Shown here: positions 12,415 to 27,592 of the stretch, piece by piece
Position numbering within the stretch: the first letter of the stretch is position 1
How the letters are laid out: every line of letters starts with the position of its first letter
Assembly: GCA_002787355.1 (NCBI GenBank)
Contig: PCWN01000009.1
Span: forward strand, 1 to 44,782
Reading direction: 5' to 3'
From: Candidatus Magasanikbacteria bacterium CG11_big_fil_rev_8_21_14_0_20_39_34
Lineage (GTDB): Bacteria > Patescibacteriota > Patescibacteriia > Magasanikbacterales > UBA922
Length of the DNA: 44,782 nucleotides
The notes under the pieces: generated by a model
The model's input: only the letters and a program-made list of their open reading frames with translations
What the model was told of the DNA's origin: nothing
Database searches by the model: none
Position numbers and translations under genes: made by a program

Positions 12415-12452
12415 GAAGCAAATTCTTTTGAAATATTTGTTTTGTGTTGTCG

Positions 12453-14255
12453 ATGGTTATGCTTTTTTTAAAAAGTAAAAAAAACCAGAGAGGATTTTCT
12501 CTCATTGAAGTTTTGATTGGGATCAGTCTTTATCTTCTTTTTGCTGTAGGAATCTTTGGGGGAATTGAATTTATATTTAAAGTAGTTTATCAATCTCGTG
12601 TTCGTATTTTAGAAACGGCTATTCTCAACGAGCAAATAGAGGTAATACGAAATATGCCGTTTGAAAGTGTAGGTATTATAAATGGAGTTCCTCAGGGAAA
12701 CCTGGATCGGGATATAATTCTTGTAAGGAATGGAATAAGCTTTCAAGTAACGCGAACCATTCGTAATATTGATGATCCATTTGATGGAACAATTGGTGGA
12801 AACCCAAATGACACTGAGCCTACCGATTATAAACTTGTTGAAGTACAAATAAACTGTGCAGATTGCAGTCAACAAGTACCATTGTCTATGACAACCACGG
12901 TTTCACCAAAGTATCTAGAAGGAGATTCAAATACTGGGGCACTCTTTATACAGGTTTTTGATGCACAAGCCAGTCCAGTTCTCGGTGCAGATGTTACGTT
13001 GAATGCTGTTTTTGCAACATCTACGGTAGATATTGCAGATACAACAGATAATGATGGGTACCTGCGTTTGGTAGGATTACCACCGGGGATAGCAATTTAT
13101 AATATCTCGGTATCGAAAAATGGATATACAAGCGACGGTACTGTTCAACCAGATGAAACAAACCCAAATCCTGTGAAGCCTCCAGCATCTGTGGTGGCAC
13201 AAGAGTTAACGGAAATTAGTTTTTCTATAGATAGAGTTTCACAAATAAATTTGAAAACGATTGATAGTACCTGTAGTGCATACCCGGGGGCTATGGTCAA
13301 TCTCGTTGGCACAAAACTTTTTGGGACAGATCCCAATGTATACAAGGTGAATCAAAATATTGTAACCGATGGAGTTGGTGCCCATAATTTTTCAAATTTA
13401 ATTTGGGATTCTTATGGGGTTCAGACAACGGGCGTAGATATTTTGGGTTCTATTCCAGCGATACCAGTTTCTTTACCTCCAAATATCACACAGCCGGTAC
13501 AAGTGGTTGTTGGTCCCAATACGGCAAATTCTTTGGTAGTATTTGTACAAGATAGTGCGACACAACAACCTATTTCTGGTGCATCTGTTCACGTCTTTTC
13601 TGCAGGGTACGATGAAACAAAGACTACAGGAGTAGGGCATATTCGTCAGACAGATTGGTCAGGAGGTTCCGGACAGGAGGATATGGTAAATGCGACACAA
13701 TTTTTTGCAAGTGATGGGAATTTAGAATTAAGTAGTCCCGCAGGAGACGCAAAACTTGCAAAAGTTGGTCTGGATTACGTATCTGATGGATACTTGGAAT
13801 CTTCAACATTTGATTTAGGGATTGAATCAAATTTAGTAAACATAAATTGGGAACCCTTTGCACAATCTCAGCCACATACTTCAAGTGACGTACGATTCCA
13901 AATTGCTTCAAATAGTACCACTACTGCGGCAAGTTGGGACTTTGTAGGGCCAGATGGAACAGCAAGTACCTATTATGATTCTAATACAATTGCAATGAGT
14001 CCCGTACATAATGGTGATCGGTATCTTCGTTACAGAATGTTTTTGCATACCGATGTCGTGACCAGTACTCCGGTAGTTTCTGATTTATCCATTTCCTATA
14101 CAACAAGTTGTACACCACCAGGTCAGGCATACTTTGGAGATATCTTGGCAGATACCTATACGGTGGAAGTCACACAACCAGATTATGTCACGACTTCTCA
14201 GGAGATCGTTGTAGATGGTGATCTATATTTTTCTATTAATTTACTTCCAAACTAG
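12453..14255 (+). CDS. Very large prepilin-like surface protein with repeat-type domains
   Basis: The 600-residue product starts with a class III (type IV pilin) leader: a short basic peptide ending in QRG, then FSLIEVLIGISLYLLF with Glu at mature position 5. PilD-type peptidase would cut before Phe. Most pilins are 130-200 residues. Here the exported part is about 580 residues and contains at least two segments that look like carboxypeptidase-regulatory beta sandwiches (for example GALFIQVFDAQASPVLGADV and SLVVFVQDSATQQPISGASV). The last third could be a laminin/jelly-roll-like binding domain. It probably caps or decorates a pilus, or works as an adhesin. I chose ATG 12453; 12459 is possible. 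Two more pseudopilin-like genes follow with tight spacing. Confidence 0.8.
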   Translation: MVMLFLKSKKNQRGFSLIEVLIGISLYLLFAVGIFGGIEFIFKVVYQSRVRILETAILNEQIEVIRNMPFESVGIINGVPQGNLDRDIILVRNGISFQVTRTIRNIDDPFDGTIGGNPNDTEPTDYKLVEVQINCADCSQQVPLSMTTTVSPKYLEGDSNTGALFIQVFDAQASPVLGADVTLNAVFATSTVDIADTTDNDGYLRLVGLPPGIAIYNISVSKNGYTSDGTVQPDETNPNPVKPPASVVAQELTEISFSIDRVSQINLKTIDSTCSAYPGAMVNLVGTKLFGTDPNVYKVNQNIVTDGVGAHNFSNLIWDSYGVQTTGVDILGSIPAIPVSLPPNITQPVQVVVGPNTANSLVVFVQDSATQQPISGASVHVFSAGYDETKTTGVGHIRQTDWSGGSGQEDMVNATQFFASDGNLELSSPAGDAKLAKVGLDYVSDGYLESSTFDLGIESNLVNINWEPFAQSQPHTSSDVRFQIASNSTTTAASWDFVGPDGTASTYYDSNTIAMSPVHNGDRYLRYRMFLHTDVVTSTPVVSDLSISYTTSCTPPGQAYFGDILADTYTVEVTQPDYVTTSQEIVVDGDLYFSINLLPN

Positions 14256-14262
14256 TTCCCCT

Positions 14263-14877
14263 ATGCGGAAACAATTTTCTCAAAAAGGTTTTACCCTCTT
14301 GGAACTTGTCGTGGCAATTGGTATTTTTCTTTTGTTGGGGGTTGGGTTTGCCTCAATTTTGGTGGTAAGTTTGAGAACAAATGATATTGTTTGGAATCAA
14401 CTGGAATCACAAAATGATGCCAGACATGTACTGCAAGAAGTGGTAGATGATGTGCGACGGGCAGAGTCTTCAAGCATTGGTTCATATGCAATAGTTACGT
14501 CTACAGCATATGAATTTGCGTTTTATGCCAATGTAGATTCGGACTCTCTTCGAGAAGAAGTACGTTTTTGGTTGGATGGGGATATATTAAAAAAAGGAGT
14601 TACCAAGCCCGCAGGGAATCCACTTGTTTATAATGCTGCAAATGAAGAAGTCAGAGAACTAGCCCATAGCGTAGTAAATATAACAGAGGGAGTAAATCTT
14701 TTTGAATATTTTGACGAAACGTATGAAGGAGTTGGCTCGGGGCTTGTGGATCCAATAGATATGACGGCTATTCGAAGTGTAAGGGTCTCATTGGAAATAG
14801 AAAAAGATCCGGATAAAAGTCCAGAACCTTTTCATGCAGAGACATTTGTCCAAATTCGTAATTTAAAAACAAATTAG
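14263..14877 (+). CDS. Pseudopilin / minor pilin (PilW/PilJ-like)
   Basis: A 204-residue prepilin. The leader MRKQFSQKG is followed by FTLLELVVAIGIFLLLGVG, with Glu5 conserved after the Gly-Phe cleavage site. The rest is an exported alpha/beta pilin head. I chose ATG 14263, seven bases after the stop of the preceding pseudopilin gene; an upstream in-frame start would overlap that gene. It lies in an operon with a giant prepilin and a PilX-like protein. The order matches minor pilin operons that prime pilus assembly. Confidence 0.85.
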   Translation: MRKQFSQKGFTLLELVVAIGIFLLLGVGFASILVVSLRTNDIVWNQLESQNDARHVLQEVVDDVRRAESSSIGSYAIVTSTAYEFAFYANVDSDSLREEVRFWLDGDILKKGVTKPAGNPLVYNAANEEVRELAHSVVNITEGVNLFEYFDETYEGVGSGLVDPIDMTAIRSVRVSLEIEKDPDKSPEPFHAETFVQIRNLKTN

Positions 14878-16409: not shown

Positions 16410-17285
16410 ATGCAAAAGGTGCGAAAAGCTATCGTAAGCGTTGCAGGACTTGGAACGCGTTTTTTGCCTGTCACAAAAGCCATGCCAAAAGAAATGTTGC
16501 CAGTGCTCGACAAGCCTGTATTGCAATATATCGTGGAAGAGTTGGTGGAAAGTGGTATAGAAGAAATAATTTTTGTAACTTCTTCTCAAAAGAGACCTAT
16601 TGAAGACCATTTTGATCGGGATAGAGATTTTGAATCATTCCTCAAAGAAAAGGGAAAGTTAGAGCGTTTGGAACCACTCATTGAACTGTGTAAAAAAGTA
16701 CGATTTTTTTATACACGTCAATCTGAGCCGCTTGGAAATGGTCATGGAATGCTTTGTGGAAGAGAATTTGTAGGAGATGAGCCATTTGTATTTTCGGAAG
16801 GGGATTCTATTATCGATGCAAAAGTTCCGGCCATGAAACAGCTCTTGGATGTTTTTTATAAAGAGGGTGCTTCTGTCATAGGTGTTGGAAAAACAGAGAA
16901 TAAGGAATCCATGATAAAATACGGAAATGTCTACGGAGAAAAGATTTCAGAACGTACCTACAAAATTAGTGAATTTATTGAAAAGCCTCCTCTTGAAAAT
17001 GTTTCTCCACATGGGATCTATATTGCTGGAATGCGTTATGTATTCACTCCGGATATCTGGCCTTTTTTGCAAAATCAGAAAAAAGGGCGTGATGGAGAAA
17101 TTTGGCTTGCTGATGCTGCCAACGCTTTAGCTCAAGAAAAACCCTTCTTTGCCTATGAGTATGAAGGAACCTATTTTGACACAGGAAATAAATTGGCTCT
17201 TCTTAAGGCTGCACTTCATTTTGCCATGAAGGACGAAAATATGAAAAAAGAACTCCAGCAAATTTGCTGTAATCGATTATGTTAA
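16410..17285 (+). CDS. galU: UTP-glucose-1-phosphate uridylyltransferase
   Basis: A 291-residue GalU-type nucleotidyltransferase that makes UDP-glucose from UTP and glucose-1-phosphate. The signature VAGLGTRFLPVTKAMPKEML lies at residues 11-30. Downstream EFIEKPP and the Asp in FSEGDSII (metal and substrate binding) are visible, and the acidic YEGTYFDTGNK end is typical of the family. Length is normal. The last codons overlap the start of the first pilin-array gene (ATGTTAA), so the two are translationally coupled. UDP-glucose could feed the GT28 glycolipid synthase encoded beyond the array, or surface glycans. Confidence 0.93.
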   Translation: MQKVRKAIVSVAGLGTRFLPVTKAMPKEMLPVLDKPVLQYIVEELVESGIEEIIFVTSSQKRPIEDHFDRDRDFESFLKEKGKLERLEPLIELCKKVRFFYTRQSEPLGNGHGMLCGREFVGDEPFVFSEGDSIIDAKVPAMKQLLDVFYKEGASVIGVGKTENKESMIKYGNVYGEKISERTYKISEFIEKPPLENVSPHGIYIAGMRYVFTPDIWPFLQNQKKGRDGEIWLADAANALAQEKPFFAYEYEGTYFDTGNKLALLKAALHFAMKDENMKKELQQICCNRLC

Positions 17286-18532
17286 AACAAATGAAAATAG
17301 CTTCGTTTATACTTCTCCTTGTCTCTTTTTTTGTACCCCAAATTTCCTATGCAGATAATTTAGTCAATTCCATTAATTGTGGTGCTCCAACAGATGAAAA
17401 TCATGTTTATACGGTGTGGGAGTTGGCAGGAAAATATGCAAATAGAGTATGTCTTGAAGTAGAAAAAGGAAAGGAGTCGCTTACGTATTGGGAGTTTTAT
17501 AGTTCGGATCTTTTAAAAGATCACGGACCTTGGGAACAAGTTGGAGCATGGCTTGATCATCGTTGTGAAACTGGACCATCTGCTGGCTTTTGGGAGGGAG
17601 ATCCACTTTTTCCAGATAACCTTCAACGGATGATCTTTCCGCTTAAAGAGCGAATAGCAGGAAGGTTGGGTGCTGAAAATTGTGAGTGGCGCGTAAAATT
17701 AGATACGGAAGACAATCCAACATATATTTACTTTAATGGTTTTCAGGATGAACTTGCAAGTTGGTGTCAAAAAAATGTCACGAATGTGACACTTCCAAGC
17801 GAAATACCACGGCAGTGCCAAAAATTTTTATCTAAGACCGTGAGTGCCGACTCACAGGGGAATCTCTATGTGGGGCAGAGAAACTTATGCACCTGTTCTT
17901 TTCAGATTGTGGGAGAGAATGCATGTTACAAAAGTGCGGTATTTAATCAGTCAACTATTAGTCTGGATTTGGGGAAAGATGATGGTTTTCTGGTAGATCT
18001 TGGAGTACAAATGAAATCCTTGGCAGGTCCTTTGGCCGGTGCGGGTTGTAACCCAATGAAGGATGACGCCTTGCGTCAACAGGCGGCATCTCAAAAACCA
18101 GCGGCATATTCCAAAGAATCATGTGAAGCACTTACAAAGGATCAGACTTTTTTGACACCGATAAACAGTGGTTATTATGTTGTTAAATTTTTTTCCTGTA
18201 AATATAGTACTATAAATCCACAAGAGAAGGTGGAGGAGGAAAAACCCGAACAAGCAAGTGTATTGGAAGTACCATTTGTGGGGGGACTCAATAAAGTGGG
18301 TGATATTAAACCCGACAAGTTTATAGGAAAAATGATTTCTCTGGCGCTCAGTGTGATGGGATCGGTGGCACTTATCATGTTTATCTATGGAGGAATTCTT
18401 TATATGACAGCAGGTGGAAATCAAAATACAGAGCACAAGGCACTCCTTACTTTAGCATGGACGGGGATAGGTATAGTTGTTATTCTTTCAAGTTACTTAC
18501 TCGTACAGTTTGTATTTGAGGCTTTTAAATAA
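17279..18532 (+). CDS. Array pilin 1: Cys-rich ectodomain plus T4SS-pilin core (417 aa)
   Basis: A signal peptide (about 1-25, ending SYA) is followed by a long cysteine-rich ectodomain (about 26-340) and then a two-helix pilin core at the C-terminus (about 347-417). The core contains IMFIYGGILYMTAGGN, a charged turn, and GIGIVVILSSYLLVQFVF. This core resembles the T4SS_pilin/VirB2-TrbC families. The ectodomain contains a CTCSFQIVG module that recurs in array pilins 2 and 4. The core is nearly the same as that of pilin 2 (both end FEAFK). The start ATG 17279 overlaps the galU stop; ATG 17291 is an alternative. Positive residues in the inter-helix turn suggest that both termini face outside. 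Confidence 0.85.
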   Translation: MLKQMKIASFILLLVSFFVPQISYADNLVNSINCGAPTDENHVYTVWELAGKYANRVCLEVEKGKESLTYWEFYSSDLLKDHGPWEQVGAWLDHRCETGPSAGFWEGDPLFPDNLQRMIFPLKERIAGRLGAENCEWRVKLDTEDNPTYIYFNGFQDELASWCQKNVTNVTLPSEIPRQCQKFLSKTVSADSQGNLYVGQRNLCTCSFQIVGENACYKSAVFNQSTISLDLGKDDGFLVDLGVQMKSLAGPLAGAGCNPMKDDALRQQAASQKPAAYSKESCEALTKDQTFLTPINSGYYVVKFFSCKYSTINPQEKVEEEKPEQASVLEVPFVGGLNKVGDIKPDKFIGKMISLALSVMGSVALIMFIYGGILYMTAGGNQNTEHKALLTLAWTGIGIVVILSSYLLVQFVFEAFK

Positions 18533-18533
18533 A

Positions 18534-19430
18534 ATGAAGCAGCATTTTTCAAAAATATTTTTTTTCATGGCTCCACTTTTAGTGGGTATGCTTTTTTTGT
18601 GTAACATAGGTGCTGTCCATGCTGCAAAAGAAGAAGCGTACTATTGCACATGCCAGCTTGAGATCACGGGAAGTGAAGATCCAAATGGAGACCCCACTAT
18701 CGGTGCTTGTACGGATACCTTTGGATTACCTGGGAACATTCCTGTAAAGGATACTGCAAATTTTGGATGGATACAGTACCAGTTGGGTCCTTTAGAAACG
18801 GATCAAAAAGAAATAAATCTTGGTGGGACACTCAATCAGGGTTACGCACAATTTTTGGTTCAAAAGAAAAATTGTTTCCCTATTAAGTTTCGAGATGAAA
18901 ATGGTGTAGTAAGGCAGACCTTAGATAATAGGCCACTTGTTTTAGGTAAAAGTTTTTGTGAAGGGGGAATGGCATTTATAGGAAAAGAAACCTACTCACG
19001 CCTTGCAAGATTTAATGGAGATATTGATGGTCACAATTATGATGGTTACTACAATGTATCCTTTCGAGAATGCAAGTTTGAAAAGCTTCTTCTTTCTAAT
19101 ATTCCCGATCCTTCAGAAAAAAAAGATGAATCAGATCAAACAACGCAACCCAACCTTACCGGTGGTTTTACCTTTCCGGGGAGTCTTGCAAAAGTGCCTG
19201 CGCAGTCTTTGGATAAGTTTATTGGGAGGGGAATTAATGGATCTTTGCTTACTATGGGTTCCATTGCCTTGATCATGTTTATCTACGGAGGGGTACTGTA
19301 TATGACAGCAGGGGGAAATCAAAATAGGGAACACAAAGCACTCTTAACGCTTGCATGGACGGGTATTGGAATTGTCACTATACTTTCCAGTTATGTTATT
19401 GTGCAGTTTATTTTCGAAGCTTTCAAATAA
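18534..19430 (+). CDS. Array pilin 2: Cys-rich ectodomain plus T4SS-pilin core (298 aa)
   Basis: I chose ATG 18534, one base after the stop of pilin 1, because it opens a clear signal peptide (MKQHFSKIFFFMAPLLVG..., cleavage after VHA near residue 29). The ectodomain begins with CTCQLEITG, related to modules in pilins 1 and 4. The C-terminal core (about 228-298) matches pilin 1 almost residue for residue, including MTAGGNQNREHKALLTLAWT and the ending FIFEAFK. The ectodomains have diverged much more than the cores, which suggests duplication followed by replacement or rapid change of the exposed part. Confidence 0.85.
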   Translation: MKQHFSKIFFFMAPLLVGMLFLCNIGAVHAAKEEAYYCTCQLEITGSEDPNGDPTIGACTDTFGLPGNIPVKDTANFGWIQYQLGPLETDQKEINLGGTLNQGYAQFLVQKKNCFPIKFRDENGVVRQTLDNRPLVLGKSFCEGGMAFIGKETYSRLARFNGDIDGHNYDGYYNVSFRECKFEKLLLSNIPDPSEKKDESDQTTQPNLTGGFTFPGSLAKVPAQSLDKFIGRGINGSLLTMGSIALIMFIYGGVLYMTAGGNQNREHKALLTLAWTGIGIVTILSSYVIVQFIFEAFK

Positions 19431-19518
19431 TAGAAAAATTTGGTACACTGCAAGAGAAAGATGGAAAGGTAGGTATAAATTTTTTTTCCATTTTTTTCAC
19501 TTAGTACCGATATATCCT

Positions 19519-20889
19519 ATGAAAAAAATCATTTCAATTTTATTTCTTTTCTTCTTCTTTTCAACACTTGGTTTTGGTTGTAAGGGGCTTTCAACACAAG
19601 AACAACAGGCTATTCGTCCAGTTACCCTCAACTATTGGACGGTATATGATGACTATCCTACACTTAAAAAGTTTGCTACAGACTACAATGCTCTTCGTTC
19701 TTATGTTACGGTCAATGTCCGTCAGATCCGCTATGATGAGTTGCATGAAAGACTTTTGAATGCTTTGGCAGATGATGTTGCCCCAGACATTGTTTCTATC
19801 CCCGTAAATCTTTTGCCTCAATATCAGAAGTGGCTTTCTGCAATGCCAAGTTCTGTACAGGTGGCCAATGTTTACGTAAAAGGACAATATTCTCCTGAAA
19901 CGGTTGTGGAACAACTTACCCAGTCAATGCCTACCATTCAGGAAATAAAAAATAGTTATGTAGGAACCGTTTACAATGATGTCGTTATTGGTGGTAAGGT
20001 GTATGGTCTTCCACTTTCACTGGATACTTTGGCACTTTACTACAACAAAGATCTTCTTGATTTGGCAGGTGTTCCTTCACCCCCAACGACTTGGGACGAA
20101 TTTTTAGATGCCGTGAAAAAAACTACGAGGTATGATTCCAGCGGTAATATCGTTCAATCTGGGGTTGCCATGGGAACTTCTACCAATGTACGAAATTCAC
20201 AAGATATTTTTGCTATGCTCCTTATGCAAAATAAGGTAGATGTCGTAAAAAATGGAGTGGTGCATTTTGCAGACAATATGGAAAAGGCCGATGAAACACA
20301 TCCAACTTTTCAAGCCTTACGGTTCTATACGGACTTTGCAAATCCGCTCAAGGAAGTCTATAGTTGGAATGCAACCATGGATGACTCACTCGATGCATTT
20401 CTTCGTGAAAAAAGTGTATTTTATTTTGGATTTGCAAGAGACTTTGCTCAAATAGGTTCTCGTGCAAAACGACTTAACATTGAGATTCTTCCCGTTCCCC
20501 AGCTGAATCCTTCTGTTCCAGCAAATGTTGCCAGCTATTGGGTAGAATCCGTAACGGATAAGAGTAAAAAGAAAAATGTTGCATGGGATTTTATTCGTTT
20601 CATGGCCAAAGAGAAAGGAGTACGTGAGTACGTAACCGCTACCAAGCTTCCTTCACCACTGCGTGCTCATATAAAACTTTTTGAGACGGATCCAGTTATG
20701 GAACCATTTGAATCACAGGTCTTGTTTGCAAAAAGCTGGTACCAAGGAAAAGATATTGAAACTGCAAATAAGGCTATTGGAAATCTTATTGATACATATC
20801 GTACTCCTGTTCAAGAAGGGGAGGTTGGGATTACTCGAGACAGAAAAATTACCAGTTATGCTGCGCGTATTGTTCAGCAAACCCTTTAA
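19519..20889 (+). CDS. Orphan extracellular solute-binding lipoprotein (family 1)
   Basis: A 456-residue ABC-type sugar-binding protein. I chose ATG 19519, which gives a lipoprotein signal peptide ending LGFG-Cys. Family 1 features include the N-terminal LNYWTVYDDYPTLKKFATDY, then VYGLPLSLDTLALYYNKDLL with PPTTWDEFLDA, and a C-terminal WDFIRFMAKEKGVREYV. The gene interrupts the pilin array, with all genes on the same strand. No permease or ATPase of an ABC transporter is nearby. It may deliver substrate to a transporter encoded elsewhere, or act as a surface receptor linked to the fibre. A weak extended -10 (TGG-TACACT, 19441-19449) may give it its own transcript. Confidence 0.88.
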   Translation: MKKIISILFLFFFFSTLGFGCKGLSTQEQQAIRPVTLNYWTVYDDYPTLKKFATDYNALRSYVTVNVRQIRYDELHERLLNALADDVAPDIVSIPVNLLPQYQKWLSAMPSSVQVANVYVKGQYSPETVVEQLTQSMPTIQEIKNSYVGTVYNDVVIGGKVYGLPLSLDTLALYYNKDLLDLAGVPSPPTTWDEFLDAVKKTTRYDSSGNIVQSGVAMGTSTNVRNSQDIFAMLLMQNKVDVVKNGVVHFADNMEKADETHPTFQALRFYTDFANPLKEVYSWNATMDDSLDAFLREKSVFYFGFARDFAQIGSRAKRLNIEILPVPQLNPSVPANVASYWVESVTDKSKKKNVAWDFIRFMAKEKGVREYVTATKLPSPLRAHIKLFETDPVMEPFESQVLFAKSWYQGKDIETANKAIGNLIDTYRTPVQEGEVGITRDRKITSYAARIVQQTL

Positions 20890-20901
20890 TATCTTTTAAG
20901 T

Positions 20902-21789
20902 ATGTTTTTATCCCTCATTCATCGAGTGTATAGTCAGTTTCATGGGAAAAGATCTGTTCCAATTCTTGGAGTATTTCTTTATACTTTTTTACTGAGCTCT
21001 CTCTTTTTGAGCCCAACGCCCGTAGAAGGAGCAGCTTGTGTGTATTATCGAGTGTTAGTTGTAGGAGGAAAAATATGTCAACCAGGTTTTACAGAAGATC
21101 AATGCAAGAGATGTGATCCTGCAGTAGGAAAAGGGTGTTCATATGCACGAGAAGATAGTCCACTTATCCCAGGAGCAACATATGGTTGTTCTGATACAAA
21201 TATCCAAAACCAGCCCATGGAGAGTGATACGGATTGTGTGGCCTTATGTAAGCTCCCTATCTCTGGTTCGGTAGATGGTTTTTCAGGGAAGGCAAATATA
21301 AAATGTACTTATATTGAAAATGATAACTCATGTAATGTATGGAGTGAGCGAACGGGAATTCGAATTGGTGAGCCCGCCGTAGGGGGGTTTAGTACAGCAG
21401 AAAATAATAAAAATCAGTCCAATGGAGATGGAAATAATGTTGGGTCTGGGAATCCGGATACAGGACTTCCTCCCCAAACTGAGCAAAGTAGTATCCTTCC
21501 CCCATGTGCTTTGGAAGGAACATGCAGAAATATTAATAACCTTTTGGAGGTTGCCATAAATGCGGGAGAATGGGTATTTGGGATCATTGGAAGTATTGCT
21601 TTTGCCGTTTTCATTTATGGTGGTTTCACGGTAGTAACTTCATTTGGTAATGCGGAAAAAGTAAAGAAGGGTTATCAAATTCTTGGCTCCGCACTTATTG
21701 GTATGGCAATTGCTTTTGGTGCATACCTCATGGTGAACTTTATTCTTGATGCTCTACAAGTGGATATTAATTTTAGGGCAATCAAATAA
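20902..21789 (+). CDS. Array pilin 3: Cys-rich ectodomain plus T4SS-pilin core (295 aa)
   Basis: A long signal peptide (about 1-47; hydrophobic stretch FLYTFLLSSLFLSP, likely cut near VEG-AA) is followed by a cysteine-dense ectodomain of about 150 residues (CxxCDP and several more Cys). An Asn/Gly/Pro linker leads to the pilin core (about 215-285, AVFIYGGFTVVTSFGN and IGMAIAFGAYLMVNFIL). A short tail follows helix 2. The MTAGGN motif is changed to VTSFGN, making this the most diverged core of the set. It lies 12 bases after the lipoprotein gene and one base before pilin 4. Confidence 0.83.
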   Translation: MFLSLIHRVYSQFHGKRSVPILGVFLYTFLLSSLFLSPTPVEGAACVYYRVLVVGGKICQPGFTEDQCKRCDPAVGKGCSYAREDSPLIPGATYGCSDTNIQNQPMESDTDCVALCKLPISGSVDGFSGKANIKCTYIENDNSCNVWSERTGIRIGEPAVGGFSTAENNKNQSNGDGNNVGSGNPDTGLPPQTEQSSILPPCALEGTCRNINNLLEVAINAGEWVFGIIGSIAFAVFIYGGFTVVTSFGNAEKVKKGYQILGSALIGMAIAFGAYLMVNFILDALQVDINFRAIK

Positions 21790-21790
21790 T

Positions 21791-22792
21791 ATGCATAAAA
21801 ACATTGTTATTTCTTTCTTGTTTAGTCTCCTGCTCTCAATTTTTTGGGGAGCAGGTACTGTTTTTGCCGCGGACTGCAACTGTCAGTTACAAGTTGGAGC
21901 TACCATTGGAGCGGACAGTTGTAATATAGATAAAAGTTTTTCATATAGTTGGGGTGAAAGTGTTTCTTTGCAAGATTTGATTCTTGCTGTCCCCGCCGCA
22001 GAGTGCCCTCAAAATGTCCAGGGGAACATTGTTTTGCTTCCTGATATAGATAATCAGACACAATTTACAAGAGATGAAGCGACCGGAGAAAACAATTGTG
22101 ATAATCCTGCTCCAAATGATCCTCCCAGACAATACCAACAAAATGGGATTAATCTTAACTTTGCGTGTTCGGCAGCAAATCCAGCCGCTCAGCCAGGACA
22201 GTGTGCATGTAGTGCAAATGTAGACGGACTTTTATGTACTGCTTCTGCACAACATACTTTTGCAGAAGGTGAACAGTTGAATCTTCGACAATTTGTAAGT
22301 TCTCTTTTGACCAATAATGGTTGTAATCTGGCAGCTTCCGCCGCAGAGAGCTTTGTTCCGGATCAGAATGTTGTGGTAGATGCGACCAGTTGTAACAGTG
22401 TAAATCTCTCAGGCAGTGAAGTTGGCCACACATATAGTGTGCAGTGTTCATACTCCGGCCAGAGTAGTGGTGCTGCTGGTGGAACCCCAACACTTACGAA
22501 TGTTCAACCAGACAAAATTGAAAATAAACTTCCAGAAGTAGAACTTCCAAATCCACTTAAGGAAGTGAACCTCAACCGACTGATTGGACGTATAATAAAA
22601 GAAGCCATGGGTATACTTGGGTCCATTACTTTGGTGGTATTTATCTACGGTGGGTACCTCTTTCTTACTGCGGCAGGAAATGAAGAAAAGGTAAAAAAGG
22701 GAGGACGTGCTATGGCATATGCGGCAGTGGGGATATTTATTATTTTGACAAGTTATGTTATACTAAACACAATATTTAGAGCCGTTTTCTAG
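21791..22792 (+). CDS. Array pilin 4: duplicated Cys module plus T4SS-pilin core (333 aa)
   Basis: I chose ATG 21791 for its signal peptide (about 1-27, ending VFA). The ectodomain holds two copies of a module. The first begins CNCQLQVGATIG and ends near FACS (about 30-135). The second begins CACSANVDG and ends near QCSYSG (about 142-225). Each has a later SxxxF/L...C pattern. A Pro/Glu linker leads to the core (about 265-333, VVFIYGGYLFLTAAGN and GIFIILTSYVILNTIF). Odd feature: an internal duplication within an array that is itself made by duplication. Confidence 0.83.
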   Translation: MHKNIVISFLFSLLLSIFWGAGTVFAADCNCQLQVGATIGADSCNIDKSFSYSWGESVSLQDLILAVPAAECPQNVQGNIVLLPDIDNQTQFTRDEATGENNCDNPAPNDPPRQYQQNGINLNFACSAANPAAQPGQCACSANVDGLLCTASAQHTFAEGEQLNLRQFVSSLLTNNGCNLAASAAESFVPDQNVVVDATSCNSVNLSGSEVGHTYSVQCSYSGQSSGAAGGTPTLTNVQPDKIENKLPEVELPNPLKEVNLNRLIGRIIKEAMGILGSITLVVFIYGGYLFLTAAGNEEKVKKGGRAMAYAAVGIFIILTSYVILNTIFRAVF

Positions 22793-22844
22793 AGACAAAA
22801 ATTCCTCAAGTTTAAGCCCTTATTGAAGGAATTTACAGGAAGAA

Positions 22845-22873
22845 TTGACTGAAATGAAAGTTCATGCTAAAGT
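22845..22873 (+). promoter_or_regulatory. Possible internal promoter before array pilin 5
   Basis: TTGACT (22845-22850), a 17-base spacer, TAAAGT (22868-22873) preceded by TGC. An inverted repeat (AATTCCT 22800-22806 with AGGAATT 22827-22833) precedes it and could act as an attenuator or terminator. Pilin 5 has the widest upstream gap in the first part of the array. Confidence 0.5.
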
Positions 22874-22907
22874 GCCTTATTCAACAAGAAGGAAGTATCT
22901 TCCCGTG

Positions 22908-22918
22908 AAAGGAGGTGA
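22908..22918 (+). promoter_or_regulatory. Near-perfect Shine-Dalgarno site of array pilin 5
   Basis: AAAGGAGGTGA at 22908-22918 is complementary to the 16S rRNA 3' end over its whole length and lies five bases before ATG 22924. No other array gene has a site this strong. Confidence 0.85.
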
Positions 22919-22923
22919 GAAAC

Positions 22924-23385
22924 ATGCAAGTACTAAAAAAATTAGCGAAAAGCAAAGCACTACTAACAGTTGCGGCCGCGTTTGTTATGGGTGTAGCGTT
23001 CGTCCCTTCAATAGCTTTGGCAGATGAAGCACAAGATACCTTCGGTATCGGATATGCTTCTGCAACCAGTCTTGGAGATAGAGATGTTCGTGTTACCATT
23101 TCAAGTATTATTAACGTAGCTTTGAGTCTCCTTGGTATCGTTGCGTTGGTTATCATCCTCGCGGGTGGTTTCAAATGGATGACAGCCGGAGGAAATGACG
23201 AAAAAGTAACTGAAGCAAGAAAGCTTATGATTTCAGGTGTGATTGGTTTGGCCATCATCTTGTCAGCATACGCAATTGCTAAATTCGTTCTACAACAGCT
23301 CTCAAGAGCTACCGCTTCCGGAGATGCCGGAGATGCCGGTATTGAGGCAACAGGAACTGCCGTTGAAGCAGATCTCGCCGGATAA
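22924..23385 (+). CDS. Array pilin 5: minimal T4SS-type pilin, candidate major subunit (153 aa)
   Basis: I chose ATG 22924, set by the near-perfect ribosome site. The signal peptide is residues 1-33 (ends IALA). The mature part is short: a 25-residue lead, helix 1 (about 61-83), the motif GGFKWMTAGGNDEK, helix 2 (about 102-124), and a Gly/Ala/Asp-rich tail. This is the length and layout of VirB2/TrbC pilins. A strong ribosome site, a possible own promoter, a 3' hairpin and more regular codons suggest high expression. I infer that it is the main fibre subunit, with the larger relatives as decorated or capping forms. Confidence 0.85.
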   Translation: MQVLKKLAKSKALLTVAAAFVMGVAFVPSIALADEAQDTFGIGYASATSLGDRDVRVTISSIINVALSLLGIVALVIILAGGFKWMTAGGNDEKVTEARKLMISGVIGLAIILSAYAIAKFVLQQLSRATASGDAGDAGIEATGTAVEADLAG

Positions 23386-23403
23386 TATTGGATACAACAC
23401 TCT

Positions 23404-23423
23404 TTGGGGGATCATATGGTCCC
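23404..23423 (+). terminator. GC-rich hairpin after array pilin 5
   Basis: GGGGGA pairs with TCCCCC around an 8-base loop in the 3' region of pilin 5. There is no T-run, so it more likely blocks 3' exonucleases or attenuates than fully terminates. This would raise the level of pilin 5 mRNA over downstream genes. Confidence 0.5.
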
Positions 23424-23503
23424 CCAGAAGAGGTATTACAGGTAGTAAGAAGTAATAAATAACCAGGGATGGTTCTTTCAGAGTTCTTAGTACCTACATT
23501 TAT

Positions 23504-23890
23504 ATGAAAAAAATCAAAGCTGTTATTCTGTCTCTCTTTGCCCTCTCTCTTCTTTTTTCTGTGCCAGCTCTTGCGCAGAATAATGGTCCCTATATTGGTC
23601 TTGACTATGGTCAGGCAACAGGACTGGGAAAAAATGATATCCGTCTTACCATTGCACGAATAATAAATGTTCTTTTGGGGCTTTTGGGAACGGTTGCTAT
23701 TGTTATAATTTTATGGGCTGGATTTAAGTGGATGACGGCGGGGGGAAATAATGAAGATATAGACCAGGCCAAAAAGATACTCATTTCTTCAGTGATTGGT
23801 TTGGCAATTATCCTCTCTGCATATGCAATCTCAAACTTTGTGTTGACTCAGTTATACAAGTCAACAACGGGCTTTGACTATAGAGAGTGA
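23504..23890 (+). CDS. Array pilin 6: minimal T4SS-type pilin (128 aa)
   Basis: A signal peptide (about 1-24, ending ALA) is followed by NDIRLTIARIINVLLGLLG and the core WAGFKWMTAGGNNEDIDQAK, then helix 2 (SSVIGLAIILSAYAISNFVL), with a very short tail. It is the closest relative of pilin 5: the same GYAS/GLDYGQATxLG lead and almost the same core. It could be a second major subunit or an alternative version. It ends in TGA, which supports the standard genetic code. Confidence 0.85.
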   Translation: MKKIKAVILSLFALSLLFSVPALAQNNGPYIGLDYGQATGLGKNDIRLTIARIINVLLGLLGTVAIVIILWAGFKWMTAGGNNEDIDQAKKILISSVIGLAIILSAYAISNFVLTQLYKSTTGFDYRE

Positions 23891-23931
23891 TATACCAAAA
23901 ATATAAGTAAAAATACCACATACCAATTTTT

Positions 23932-24567
23932 ATGAAGCATAAACTCATTTTTCTTACTTCCCTTTTCATCTTTGCTCTTCTTATTGTGCCAAGTGGTGCG
24001 GTTTTTGCAGACTATGGACTTCAAAATACTGCTGATGCAGCGGGTCTTACCAATGCTGCAGGGGGGACAGATATCCCAACTATTTTAGGAAATATTATTG
24101 GTACGGCACTTTCTTTGGTGTCTATTCTTTTCTTTATTCTCATGATTTATGGAGGATTTTTGTGGATGACGGCACATGGAAAAAGTGAACAGACCACAAA
24201 GGCCTTGGATACTATTATTGCTGCCGTTATTGGTATTGTTATTGTGATGGGTGCCTATGCTCTTACCAACTTTGTATTTAATAATGTTGTCGGTGGTGGA
24301 GGGACGACTAATACTCCAACTCCGGTTCAATCACCAGACAATCTACCAGCAGGAGTACCCGCACAGCTTGCATGTAACAACACAGATGAATGTGTGGCAA
24401 GACTTGGAGCCGGGCAAGAATGCAGAAATAACCAGTGTGTAAATTGTGTTGCAAATCCTGAATTATGTCCGGCGGCAGCACCGGTTCCCAATATTGGTGT
24501 CGCTTGTGTGGATAATAGTACTTGTTTAGGTGGTACTACTTGTGTTGCTGGAACTTGTCAGCTTTAG
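23932..24567 (+). CDS. Array pilin 7: T4SS-pilin core with Cys-knot-like tail (211 aa)
   Basis: A signal peptide (about 1-27, ending VFA) and the core (helix 1, IYGGFLWMTAHGKSEQ, helix 2; about 45-120) come first. A Gly/Thr/Pro linker and an 80-residue tail with ten or more cysteines follow. The tail has two repeats of a Cx5C...GxxCxxxxC form (for example CNNTDECVARLGAGQEC and CVDNSTCLGGTTC). Such repeats look like small disulfide-stabilised extracellular modules. Here the decoration is C-terminal rather than N-terminal, which fits a topology with both ends outside. Confidence 0.85.
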   Translation: MKHKLIFLTSLFIFALLIVPSGAVFADYGLQNTADAAGLTNAAGGTDIPTILGNIIGTALSLVSILFFILMIYGGFLWMTAHGKSEQTTKALDTIIAAVIGIVIVMGAYALTNFVFNNVVGGGGTTNTPTPVQSPDNLPAGVPAQLACNNTDECVARLGAGQECRNNQCVNCVANPELCPAAAPVPNIGVACVDNSTCLGGTTCVAGTCQL

Positions 24568-24588
24568 CCTTAAGTTGGATTGATAATT

Positions 24589-25359
24589 ATGAAATCATGG
24601 AAAATAAAATTGGGCTTAGTGACATTAGTATTTTTTATTTTTCAGTTTGGAAATTTAGAGGAAACTTTTGCAAAAAAACAATTTACAGATAATGGAACAG
24701 CACTTTCTACTGCAGTTACAAAAAGTGGATTCGATCAATTTTCACAGTTAAGCAGTTTGCCTGAGTATCTTGGGGGAGGGGTAAAAGCCGCCCTTGGATT
24801 GGTGGGAATCATTTTCTTTGTTTTGATGTTTTATGGTGGGATGAGATGGTTTATATCCCGTGGGGAGGAAGATGGAATTACCAAAGGAAAAGAAACCATT
24901 GTTGCTGCGTTCATTGGGCTCTTGATAATTTTGAGTGCCTATGCCGTCACGGATCTAGTACAGACACGCCTTATAAAAGCGGATAAAAGTTCAGCTGGGA
25001 CAGATGCTTCTGCGCCTGGTGCTGCGGCGGGAGACGGACCTATTGGATGCTGTATTGATGCAATTACTGATCCTGGTCCTGGATTTAACTTTGTTTTCGT
25101 AGAATACACCACTACAAAATCAAACTGTAGTATACGACAGGCGCAAGATGACGTCGCAGGGGCAGAGGGATCTCATTGGTTTTGGTACCAGACCAATGGT
25201 GATAAAAGACTTTGTGAATATATTTTTCAGGAATGTTTTGATGATTCTGCAGGAAGAGTACCCGTGTTGGCACCAATTCTTAATCCAAATGTAGAAAACA
25301 AACAACAATGTGCTGGGCAAGTTATTGAGGCCTATGCCACCGTTGCAAGTGGTGGTTAA
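24589..25359 (+). CDS. Array pilin 8: T4SS-pilin core with CC-motif tail (256 aa)
   Basis: I chose ATG 24589, which opens a signal peptide (about 1-28, ending TFA). The core is FYGGMRWFISRGEEDG with helix 2 (FIGLLIILSAYAVTDLV). It is followed by a Ser/Ala/Gly linker and a 100-residue tail that begins GCCIDAITD and holds further cysteines. The tail start and later Cys spacing match the tails of pilins 10 and 11. The core motif WMTAxG is altered to WFISRG. Confidence 0.83.
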   Translation: MKSWKIKLGLVTLVFFIFQFGNLEETFAKKQFTDNGTALSTAVTKSGFDQFSQLSSLPEYLGGGVKAALGLVGIIFFVLMFYGGMRWFISRGEEDGITKGKETIVAAFIGLLIILSAYAVTDLVQTRLIKADKSSAGTDASAPGAAAGDGPIGCCIDAITDPGPGFNFVFVEYTTTKSNCSIRQAQDDVAGAEGSHWFWYQTNGDKRLCEYIFQECFDDSAGRVPVLAPILNPNVENKQQCAGQVIEAYATVASGG

Positions 25360-25380
25360 AACATATCATAATTATTTCGT

Positions 25381-25752
25381 ATGAATCTTTTCAAAAAAAT
25401 AATACTTTCTCTCTTTTCTCTTGCTCTTCTTTGTGCTCCATCCATGACTTTTGCTTATAACTTGGGAGACTCGGGCACACTTTTTAGAAATTTGGGTTCA
25501 AAGACGGGGATTCAGCAGGATGCACAGATAGAAGACATTGTTGGTGCAGCCATTCGTACAGCACTTACTTTGGTAGGACTAGTTTTTTTGGTATTGATGG
25601 TATACGCAGGATATCTTTGGATGACGGCACGTGGAGAAGATAGTCAGGTAGAAAAAGCAAGAAAAATTGTGTATGCTTCTATTATTGGGTTAGTTATTGT
25701 GATGAGTGCTTACGCAATTACGGTCCTTGTTACTAGTAGATTGGGAACGTAA
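25381..25752 (+). CDS. Array pilin 9: minimal T4SS-type pilin (123 aa)
   Basis: A signal peptide (about 1-23, ending TFA) and a short lead (LRNLGSKTGIQQDAQIEDI in part) precede the core VYAGYLWMTARGEDSQVEKAR and helix 2 (SIIGLVIVMSAYAITVLV). There is almost no tail. Together with pilins 5 and 6 it makes three undecorated members. It lies 21 bases after pilin 8 and 42 bases before pilin 10. Confidence 0.85.
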   Translation: MNLFKKIILSLFSLALLCAPSMTFAYNLGDSGTLFRNLGSKTGIQQDAQIEDIVGAAIRTALTLVGLVFLVLMVYAGYLWMTARGEDSQVEKARKIVYASIIGLVIVMSAYAITVLVTSRLGT

Positions 25753-25794
25753 AAGATTTAAAAATGTTCATTAGAAAAATTATTTATTCAGTCT

Positions 25795-26406
25795 ATGTTT
25801 TCAAAATGTAAAACAATTATTCTTTCTGCATTTCTGTTGAGCTTTTTATTGGTGGGGCATGCGCATGCCTTTGCAGACATAGGTACTTCTCGAATTCATA
25901 AGGGAGCAGAAGCTGGTGGGTACCAGCCGGGAGCCGACGAAACCACATTGGCGTCCATTATAGGAACCTTCATTCAGGCTATTTTGTCTCTGGTTGGGGC
26001 CATTTTTTTGGTCCTTATCTTCTATGCTGGTTTTCAGTGGATGACGGCTCATGGAGATGACTCTATCGTAGAGAAATCCAAAGATATGATTCGTTCTTCG
26101 GTAATTGGGCTTGCTATTGTGGTTGGTGCCTACAGTATTACCAGTTTTGTGGTTCCAAAGATTATCGAAAAAACAACAGGAAGCCAGGTGGGCGGAAGTT
26201 CCGGAACTCCTGCCGGTGGGGAAATTTGGTGTTGTACAAAAATTAATAAAAACAGAAATGAAGTACTCGATAGACATGTTGTGAATAATCCTGGTGAGTG
26301 TATTGAGGGAGGAGGAAGAAGCGGAGATTGTCCAGGTTGGGGAGCGCAGGTTGATGAGCAGTGTAGTGTGGAACAGGTGGATTTGGTAACGGATTGTAAA
26401 CTATAA
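25795..26406 (+). CDS. Array pilin 10: T4SS-pilin core with CC-motif tail (203 aa)
   Basis: A signal peptide (about 1-26, ending AFA) is followed by the core FYAGFQWMTAHGDDSIVEKS with helix 2 (SSVIGLAIVVGAYSITSFV). A Gly/Ser linker and a tail of about 60 residues that starts EIWCCTKIN follow, with later Cys in GECIEGG and GDCPGWG. The tail aligns by eye with that of pilin 11 and more loosely with pilin 8. Core residues are close to pilins 7 and 9. Confidence 0.85.
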   Translation: MFSKCKTIILSAFLLSFLLVGHAHAFADIGTSRIHKGAEAGGYQPGADETTLASIIGTFIQAILSLVGAIFLVLIFYAGFQWMTAHGDDSIVEKSKDMIRSSVIGLAIVVGAYSITSFVVPKIIEKTTGSQVGGSSGTPAGGEIWCCTKINKNRNEVLDRHVVNNPGECIEGGGRSGDCPGWGAQVDEQCSVEQVDLVTDCKL

Positions 26407-26418
26407 AGAGGTCCCATT

Positions 26419-27057
26419 ATGCGTTTTTTAAAAAAACAATTTATAGCCTATTTTTCTTTTTTCTTGCTTCTTGGATCTCTTTTTGGTGTACCTGCGTATG
26501 CTGGGTTAAATGTGAGCATTGAAAGAGATTCAAGATCGGATAGTCTTGCAGATCAAATAAAGCAACAATATCAGACAGGTGCTCAAAAGGCAGAAATTGG
26601 AGAAGCAAAAGATCCACGTTTGGTCATTGCTGAAATGATCAAACTTGCTTTGGAGATGCTCGGTACCGTATTTTTGGTATTGGTAGTTATTGGAGGGTAT
26701 CATTATTTTTCTGCAGCAGGTGACGACCAAAAAACAGAGAAGGGGAAAAGTTATATCCGTAATGCCAGCATTGGTTTCACCATTGTCATGGTATCATATA
26801 GCATTACTCTTTTTGTAGGGCAAAAGATACAGGAGTCTGTGGCACCTGGTTCTACTGCAGGAGGGGTAGATCCAACACAGAGTGTTTTATGTTGTGACCT
26901 CATCTGGAAAGGTGTCGTGACGGATAGGGCAGAGACATTTGTGGTTCAGGACAGAGACCAGTGTTTGCAGTATTGTAGTGGACGCGGGGATGGACAGGGA
27001 GATGATAGCCCAACAACCTGTAATGTAAGTACCCTGCCAAAGGCTGAGTGTAAATAA
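26419..27057 (+). CDS. Array pilin 11: T4SS-pilin core with CC-motif tail (212 aa)
   Basis: A signal peptide (about 1-28, ending AYA) and a charged lead with AKDPRLVIAEMIKLALEML precede the core VIGGYHYFSAAGDDQKTEKG and helix 2 (ASIGFTIVMVSYSITLFV). The tail is SVLCCDLIWKG with later QCLQYCSGRG. WMTA is changed to YFSA. The lead AxDPRxVIAxxI is shared with pilin 12, so these two are sister genes, whereas the tail is shared with pilins 8 and 10. Confidence 0.83.
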   Translation: MRFLKKQFIAYFSFFLLLGSLFGVPAYAGLNVSIERDSRSDSLADQIKQQYQTGAQKAEIGEAKDPRLVIAEMIKLALEMLGTVFLVLVVIGGYHYFSAAGDDQKTEKGKSYIRNASIGFTIVMVSYSITLFVGQKIQESVAPGSTAGGVDPTQSVLCCDLIWKGVVTDRAETFVVQDRDQCLQYCSGRGDGQGDDSPTTCNVSTLPKAECK

Positions 27058-27067
27058 TTTTCTTCGT

Positions 27068-27592
27068 ATGAAAAAAAGTTTGTTTCTTACCTTATGCATT
27101 TCACTCCTTTTTACGGGATTTGTATTTGTAACTCCTGTTCATGCAAATTTCAATAGTAATGTAGACAAACAAACACAAGCACTTGCTGGCAATACGGGAG
27201 CAAGTTTTGGGCAAGCGCGAGATCCACGTATTGTGGTTGCAAACGTTATCCGAATTATTATAAGTATTTTAGGAATGGGATTTTTGGCTTATCTTATTTA
27301 TGCCGGTTCACTTTGGATGACAGCAGGTGGTAATGATAGCCAAGTGGATAAAGCAAAATCTATAATAAGAACAAGCGTTATTGGGCTGGTTATCATATTT
27401 TGTTCGTATATGATAACGATTGCCATCACAAGAATTGCAACAGGGAATCCGCGTGCTTTTCAGGAAGGTATTCAGTTTGAGAGGATAGAAACAGAGCCTT
27501 GTGTTGGTGGAGATTGTTTTAATCAACAAGGCGTTTATGATAGACCCGATAATGCCGATGGATTTTATGCTCCAGGTACCCCTGGAAGATAA
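27068..27592 (+). CDS. Array pilin 12: T4SS-type pilin with short tail (174 aa)
   Basis: A signal peptide (about 1-27, ending VHA) is followed by a lead with QARDPRIVVANVIRIIISIL and the core IYAGSLWMTAGGNDSQVDKA with helix 2 (TSVIGLVIIFCSYMITIAI). A tail of about 45 residues has one Cys pair (CVGGDC) and a Pro/Gly-rich end. It is the last gene of the array and is followed by a strong terminator shared with the convergent glycosyltransferase gene. Confidence 0.85.
   Translation: MKKSLFLTLCISLLFTGFVFVTPVHANFNSNVDKQTQALAGNTGASFGQARDPRIVVANVIRIIISILGMGFLAYLIYAGSLWMTAGGNDSQVDKAKSIIRTSVIGLVIIFCSYMITIAITRIATGNPRAFQEGIQFERIETEPCVGGDCFNQQGVYDRPDNADGFYAPGTPGR

Follow-up and report, generated by a model that had tools for sequence, protein, structure and literature searches.

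Tandem arrays of 2–11 variable VirB2-like pilins with PF18895 or PF04956 domains, sharing an average identity of 25%, are described for Patescibacteria (PMC12102498), and in Southlakia epibionticum, the one relative tested, the pilin series of the T4SS is essential (PMC10633639). The array in this study lies in the window, the whole 44,782-nucleotide stretch of DNA that was analyzed (G000:C6:1-44782), which is part of a 1.18 Mb draft genome from Candidatus Magasanikbacteria, and it likewise consists of tandem pilins of low identity, here 12 genes with a T4SS_pilin (PF18895) domain, found by profile search at 17279–27592. As in S. epibionticum, it is a series of predicted pilins in a member of the Patescibacteria; the pilins of that organism, however, lie inside the T4SS cluster (PMC10633639), whereas here the array is on contig C6 and the virB4-like gene on contig C1 of the draft genome, so that gene position does not tie the array to a secretion system. 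The genes and tail domains discussed below are as follows, with positions counted in the window.

17279–18532, + strand: p1, pilin core with a long Cys-rich N-terminal domain, 12 Cys past the signal peptide
18477–19430, + strand: p2, pilin core with a long Cys-rich N-terminal domain, 6 Cys past the signal peptide
20902–21789, + strand: p3, pilin core with a long Cys-rich N-terminal domain, 12 Cys past the signal peptide
21746–22792, + strand: p4, pilin core with a long Cys-rich N-terminal domain, 12 Cys past the signal peptide
22915–23890, + strand: p5 and p6 (slots a and b), Cys-free pilins without a Cys tail, cores 70% identical
23932–24567, + strand: p7 (slot c), pilin with a 10-Cys tail starting at about 24373; slot-c tails vary among genera
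24580–25359, + strand: p8 (slot d), pilin with the conserved slot-d CC tail; the likelier start is the ATG at 24589
25039–25272, + strand: slot-d CC tail domain of p8, with CC at 25048, conserved Cys at residues 183 and 212, and a conserved Asp
25381–25752, + strand: p9 (slot e), tail-less pilin; slot e is tail-less in almost every genome
25795–26406, + strand: p10 (slot f), pilin with a lineage-restricted CC tail
26230–26403, + strand: CC tail of p10, Cys at 0, 1, 23, 33, 44 and 55 counted from the first Cys
26419–27057, + strand: p11 (slot g), pilin whose CC tail is absent from all other slot-g orthologues seen
26890–27054, + strand: CC tail of p11, Cys at 0, 1, 24, 28, 43 and 53 counted from the first Cys
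27068–27592, + strand: p12 (slot h), pilin with a short two-Cys tail, core clade sister to slot g

The genes p7–p12 probably form one operon, as the gaps between them are about 10–45 bases and all are on a single strand. PF18895 scores were 29.5 bits for p8, 32.4 bits for p10 and 30.2 bits for p11, against a Pfam gathering cut-off of 26.6, and in p8 and p10 a hydrophobic leader (by eye) is seen together with two core helices separated by a short charged loop, placed by AlphaFold at residues 54–89 and 94–134 of p8 and at 48–84 and 89–127 of p10. The tail of p7 was considered as an EB module (PF01683) and rejected, the score of 18.5 bits being under the Pfam cut-off of 24.3. Inside the array, between p2 and p3, there is also a gene for an extracellular solute-binding-like protein (by eye; 19351–20889), and upstream of the array, at 12444–14877, there are genes for two proteins that bear N-methylation motifs of type IV pilins, one of which has a carboxypeptidase-regulatory-like domain.

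From relatives, 60 array loci were fetched, in which 566 pilin cores were found by iterated profile, and a core tree was built on 73 columns, with supports that are moderate and in some places low. The comparison drew on 46 genomes from one family, Ca. Magasanikbacteria, to which the window also belongs, and since none of the relatives is closer than family level, recent events may have escaped notice. Across the roughly 45 genomes spanned by the tree there is one core clade per array position, and gene position and tree agree closely, the order after the long N-domain pilins being a and b (p5, p6), c (p7), d (p8), e (p9), f (p10), g (p11) and h (p12), with slots c and d together in the tree. 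This comparison shows the array positions to be conserved slots, each of them probably a separately inherited paralogue. As had been read from the sequence alone, the cores of p8, p10 and p11 are not mutual nearest relatives, each grouping with its own slot (d, f and g, respectively), and p11 is indeed closest to p12, slots g and h being sister clades with a support of 0.80. Within the same slots, identity is 47–62% for cores and 24–26% for tails; on these alignments, the tails appear to change fast relative to the cores.

Cysteine makes up 0.08% of the cores and 6.4% of the tails. Every one of the 130 Cys-bearing tails in the family arrays (L051–L094 and the window), which contain from 2 to 36 Cys, has an even number of them, as do all 54 remaining after clustering at 40% identity, 16 of 16 in 37 further loci and 27 of 28 in the other families that were fetched first, compared with 233 even and 214 odd counts in control ORFs of at least 150 aa from the same loci. 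The four long N-terminal domains in the window also have even counts (by eye); long N-terminal domains taken by a script that did not resolve signal-peptide ends gave 34 even and 33 odd. Even Cys counts are favored in exported, oxidized proteins, and the genome has a VKOR gene adjoining a DsbA-like gene, plus four more DsbA-like genes. Because the counts are even without exception in the family, the cores are poor in Cys and VKOR and DsbA-like genes are present, it is very probable that the tails are exported and that all their cysteines are joined in disulfides, with parity indicating pairing in sum and not which Cys pairs with which.

Two lone pilin-domain proteins elsewhere in the genome, on G000:C9 (L196:1326-3646) and G000:C11 (L197:1408-3944), are each encoded directly after a DsbA-like gene, and the second also has lytic-transglycosylase-like and SGNH-hydrolase-like regions (by eye). 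Cys modules repeated in tandem, e.g., CKKHNPNWSCQKLTACG / CEQHNPNWSCQKLTACG, were observed within slot-c-region tails of L069 (12272–13330, minus strand) and in slot c of L087, and tails can therefore grow by duplication inside one gene.

The tails of p8, p10 and p11 were originally singled out in the sequence-only reading by their starts with GCC, WCC and LCC, and these starts had been placed correctly, the CC being at residues 157–158 of p8 (PIG-CC-IDAITD), 146–147 of p10 (EIW-CC-TKINKN) and 158–159 of p11 (SVL-CC-DLIWKG). The further Cys announced 20–30 residues on is present as well, at 183, 169 and 182, respectively, which is 22–25 residues later. Adjacency of the first two Cys by chance has, for the three tails singly, a P of 0.045, 0.076 and 0.081 on shuffling. 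Among the Cys-bearing tails of all fetched arrays, however, 53 of 132 are “CC-first” against 11.7 expected and a maximum of 23 in 1000 shuffles, so the motif is no product of chance.

In the slot-d tail domain, four Cys (CC, C, C) are invariant and an Asp is nearly so, and a CC tail is found on slot d in most genomes of the family, being missing in L052/L076, L067/L084 and L059/L082/L089/L094. A profile of 26 slot-d tails, with the window excluded, finds the tail of p8 (E 1e-5, 19.6 bits), the best of 2,640 decoys with Cys positions fixed reaching 17.4 bits; the tails of p10 and p11 were not found with this profile, and hhalign likewise gave no match for them. In 95 whole genomes the domain has 28 occurrences, in 27 genomes, all on the slot-d pilin and on nothing else, with G005 having it twice, on two contigs with pilin arrays. 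As slot d is its only location in these 95 genomes, the module has stayed in place throughout the family's history as sampled here. Sequence comparison with Pfam and the PDB matched the slot-d tail to no known domain, and it is an uncatalogued domain. The p8 tail is modeled by AlphaFold as beta-beta-alpha-beta-alpha, with a block pLDDT of up to 91; when the whole model was used as the query, Foldseek returned nothing at E 0.001 and VIA-align returned only helical hairpins, matching over the core. Adjacent Cys seldom bond to each other, and for this reason the CC of the minimal, four-Cys slot-d tails (Cys at 0, 1, 25 and 56 in L068) would pair with the two helix cysteines, one per helix.

Two further observations concern the neighborhood of slot d. 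Slot c bears a GCC tail in L084 (L084.2, L084.3, G035), and slot d is tail-less in L067 and L084, which are of one genus; a shift of the tail between slots c and d in L084 may have taken place, the match to the slot-d profile being weak (E 0.17). Additionally, a second recurrent tail, which ends ...C.GG..IVCC and differs from the slot-d domain, is carried by pilins just upstream of slot d in L051, L055, L056, L076 and L078, which represent several genera.

Most genomes have no tail on slot f. CC tails on this slot are present in L063, L079, L088 (two copies), L072/L086/L091 (two copies each) and the window, which are five scattered lineages with tail-less neighbors in a tree of joined cores, and other, quite different Cys tails are present in L055/L056, L068 and L078. 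Slot g has short tails with 0–2 Cys everywhere except in the window. The tail of p10 had no match among the 46 family genomes and that of p11 none among 86 genomes of the order, nor did p11 match anything in a collection of genome contigs; when the slot-f alignment was run against the genome contigs, 79 loci were found, 37 of them new and none with a slot-g CC tail. These comparisons support the tails of p10 and p11 as younger, fast-changing additions with a history unlike that of their cores. The expectation that tail and core histories would differ thus holds at slots f and g, but not for p8, whose tail stays with the slot-d core.

The three tails had also been called homologous, which is upheld for p8 with the other slot-d tails, is suggestive only for p10 with p11, and is not established for p8 with either of them. 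That the p8 tail is directly homologous to those of p10 and p11 was rejected, since in pairwise comparison it scores lower than the Cys-fixed shuffles do on average, and the T-T-x-x-D-C motif of slot d has no match in the p10 and p11 tails. In the pre-CC linker, where slot d often has GG[ET], the slot-f pilin of L063 fits the slot-d pattern (P 0.003), and p10 (P 0.17) and p11 (P 0.24) do not. The tails of p10 and p11 are about one quarter identical, with 198 of 5,000 Cys-fixed shuffles scoring as well, and their Cys spacings agree (P 0.04). Leave-one-out profiles that include the L079 slot-f tail (Cys at 0, 1, 24, 45, 55 and 66) rank p11 about fifth and p10 about tenth among 2,640 decoys, ranks to be discounted about tenfold as L079 was a post-hoc choice of third member. 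The p10 tail is modeled as a beta hairpin and a short helix (pLDDT 60–70), and the models of p8 and p10 open alike, with two strands, the CC in the first, and then a helix with the next Cys. A common, very divergent origin is possible, given the borderline similarity of p10 and p11 and the similar opening of the p8 and p10 models.

The sequence-only reading had proposed that tails were exchanged between array genes, which would be by gene conversion or unequal recombination at the linker, and the presence of CC tails on three slots with non-sister cores, the lineage-specific gain of the p11 tail, and the Cys spacing and weak similarity shared by p10 and p11 are all in its favor. If tails moved within a lineage, however, those on different slots of one genome should resemble each other more closely than those on different slots of separate genera, and no such excess was seen, the mean Z being 0.46 within genomes (11 pairs) and 0.36 between genera (326 pairs). 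Slot-d tails compared with each other across genera have a mean Z of 5.34, and for 28 of 28 the nearest tail in another genus is again from slot d. The expected signal of recent recombination did not emerge either, as the three tails share no stretch of DNA beyond chance; GC3 in the linker and tail of p11 does exceed that of its core (0.405 vs. 0.278), but over 79 codons only. Gene-conversion pilin cassettes were considered as a candidate and rejected, the tails of p10 and p11 having a best local match of only 9 bases at the DNA level. The slot-d tail, found once per array in its 27 genomes and on no other slot in the 95, and the scores of p8 against p10 and p11 below the shuffle mean, also argue against exchange. 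The comparisons contradict exchange for p8 and support gain separately from the core for the p10 and p11 tails, and we consider exchange between array genes unlikely overall, even if the simplest source of the p11 tail within the array, an old copy of a slot-f tail that has since diverged, is possible.

The CC tails on different slots may instead have arisen independently, through lengthening of the C-terminus into the sequence downstream or through capture of small, unrelated exported domains, with their likeness reflecting that a CC pair staples a short post-linker domain well. This would apply to p10 and p11 only and is compatible with the explanation preferred below. Slot-f tails from different genera are unlike beyond their Cys (mean Z 0.41), quite different Cys tails occur on the same slot (L055, L068, L078), and the slot-d and slot-f profiles find neither p10 nor p11, as independent origins would lead one to expect; the p10 model, however, opens as p8 does (CC strand, second strand, Cys-bearing helix), and CC-first tails are strongly enriched in slots d and f. 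On balance, we see independent origin as a plausible account that falls short of being probable. It is far less credible that the tail cysteines bind metal ions instead of forming disulfides, although short Cys-rich CC domains also occur in metal-binding proteins, considering that only even counts occur, up to 36, that Cys is confined to the exported part and that DsbA and VKOR are present in the genome.

The explanation that we prefer, and regard as reasonably probable, is that of a slot-fixed VirB2-type array with conserved cores and fast-evolving, disulfide-locked outer tails, in which the tail of p8 is inherited and those of p10 and p11 are younger. The array would be an operon-like set of VirB2-type (T4SS_pilin) subunits, each position an old paralogue, whose two-helix core would be conserved because it is packed in the membrane or in a filament, with the C-terminal tails on the outer side and turning over fast. 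The p8 tail would have been inherited with the slot-d core as a small beta-beta-alpha-beta-alpha module, its CC bonded to one Cys per helix, and younger CC tails would have been added to p10 and p11, at slot g in this lineage and at slot f in a few lineages. An export-side DsbA/VKOR system would then pair all tail cysteines, and the resulting rigid knobs would decorate the pilus and probably touch the partner. The slots are probably distinct subunits of a pilus or of a membrane pilin assembly, and the tails outward modules for contact with a partner cell. More tentatively, the array may encode a heteromeric T4SS-type pilus of about eleven slot-specific subunits, with replaceable, disulfide-stapled, host-facing tails as an evolving recognition surface on a fixed order of cores, and with small CC domains coming and going at defined slots and leaving the core undisturbed.

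Little is known of the means by which ultrasmall bacteria attach to their hosts and exploit them, and fixed pilin slots with separately evolving, disulfide-locked tails offer a testable idea of the parts that touch the partner. The even-Cys rule is, in addition, a simple sequence marker for exported, oxidized modules in these genomes. The pilE/pilS antigenic-variation cassettes of Neisseria also combine a conserved core with a variable C-terminal part and require near-identical donor DNA; the arrangement of core and variable C-terminus is alike here, but such donor DNA is absent. PilB, a modular type IV minor pilin of Streptococcus sanguinis, likewise has a small core and a C-terminal functional module, although its type IV pilin core is unrelated to the cores here (PMC8179133). 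The two-helix core aligns over its full length with the archaeal conjugation pilin of Aeropyrum pernix (8dfu; 84 residues, rmsd 5.0), with a Z of 6.8, a value that unrelated helical hairpins also reach, and that pilin has no tail. For the VirB2-like arrays of Patescibacteria, the portion of the report available to us counts arrays and does not describe slot-wise orthology, tail modules, a slot-d domain or Cys parity (PMC12102498). The array itself is of a known kind, to which this study adds a slot-fixed domain, the turnover of tails and a strict even-Cys rule.
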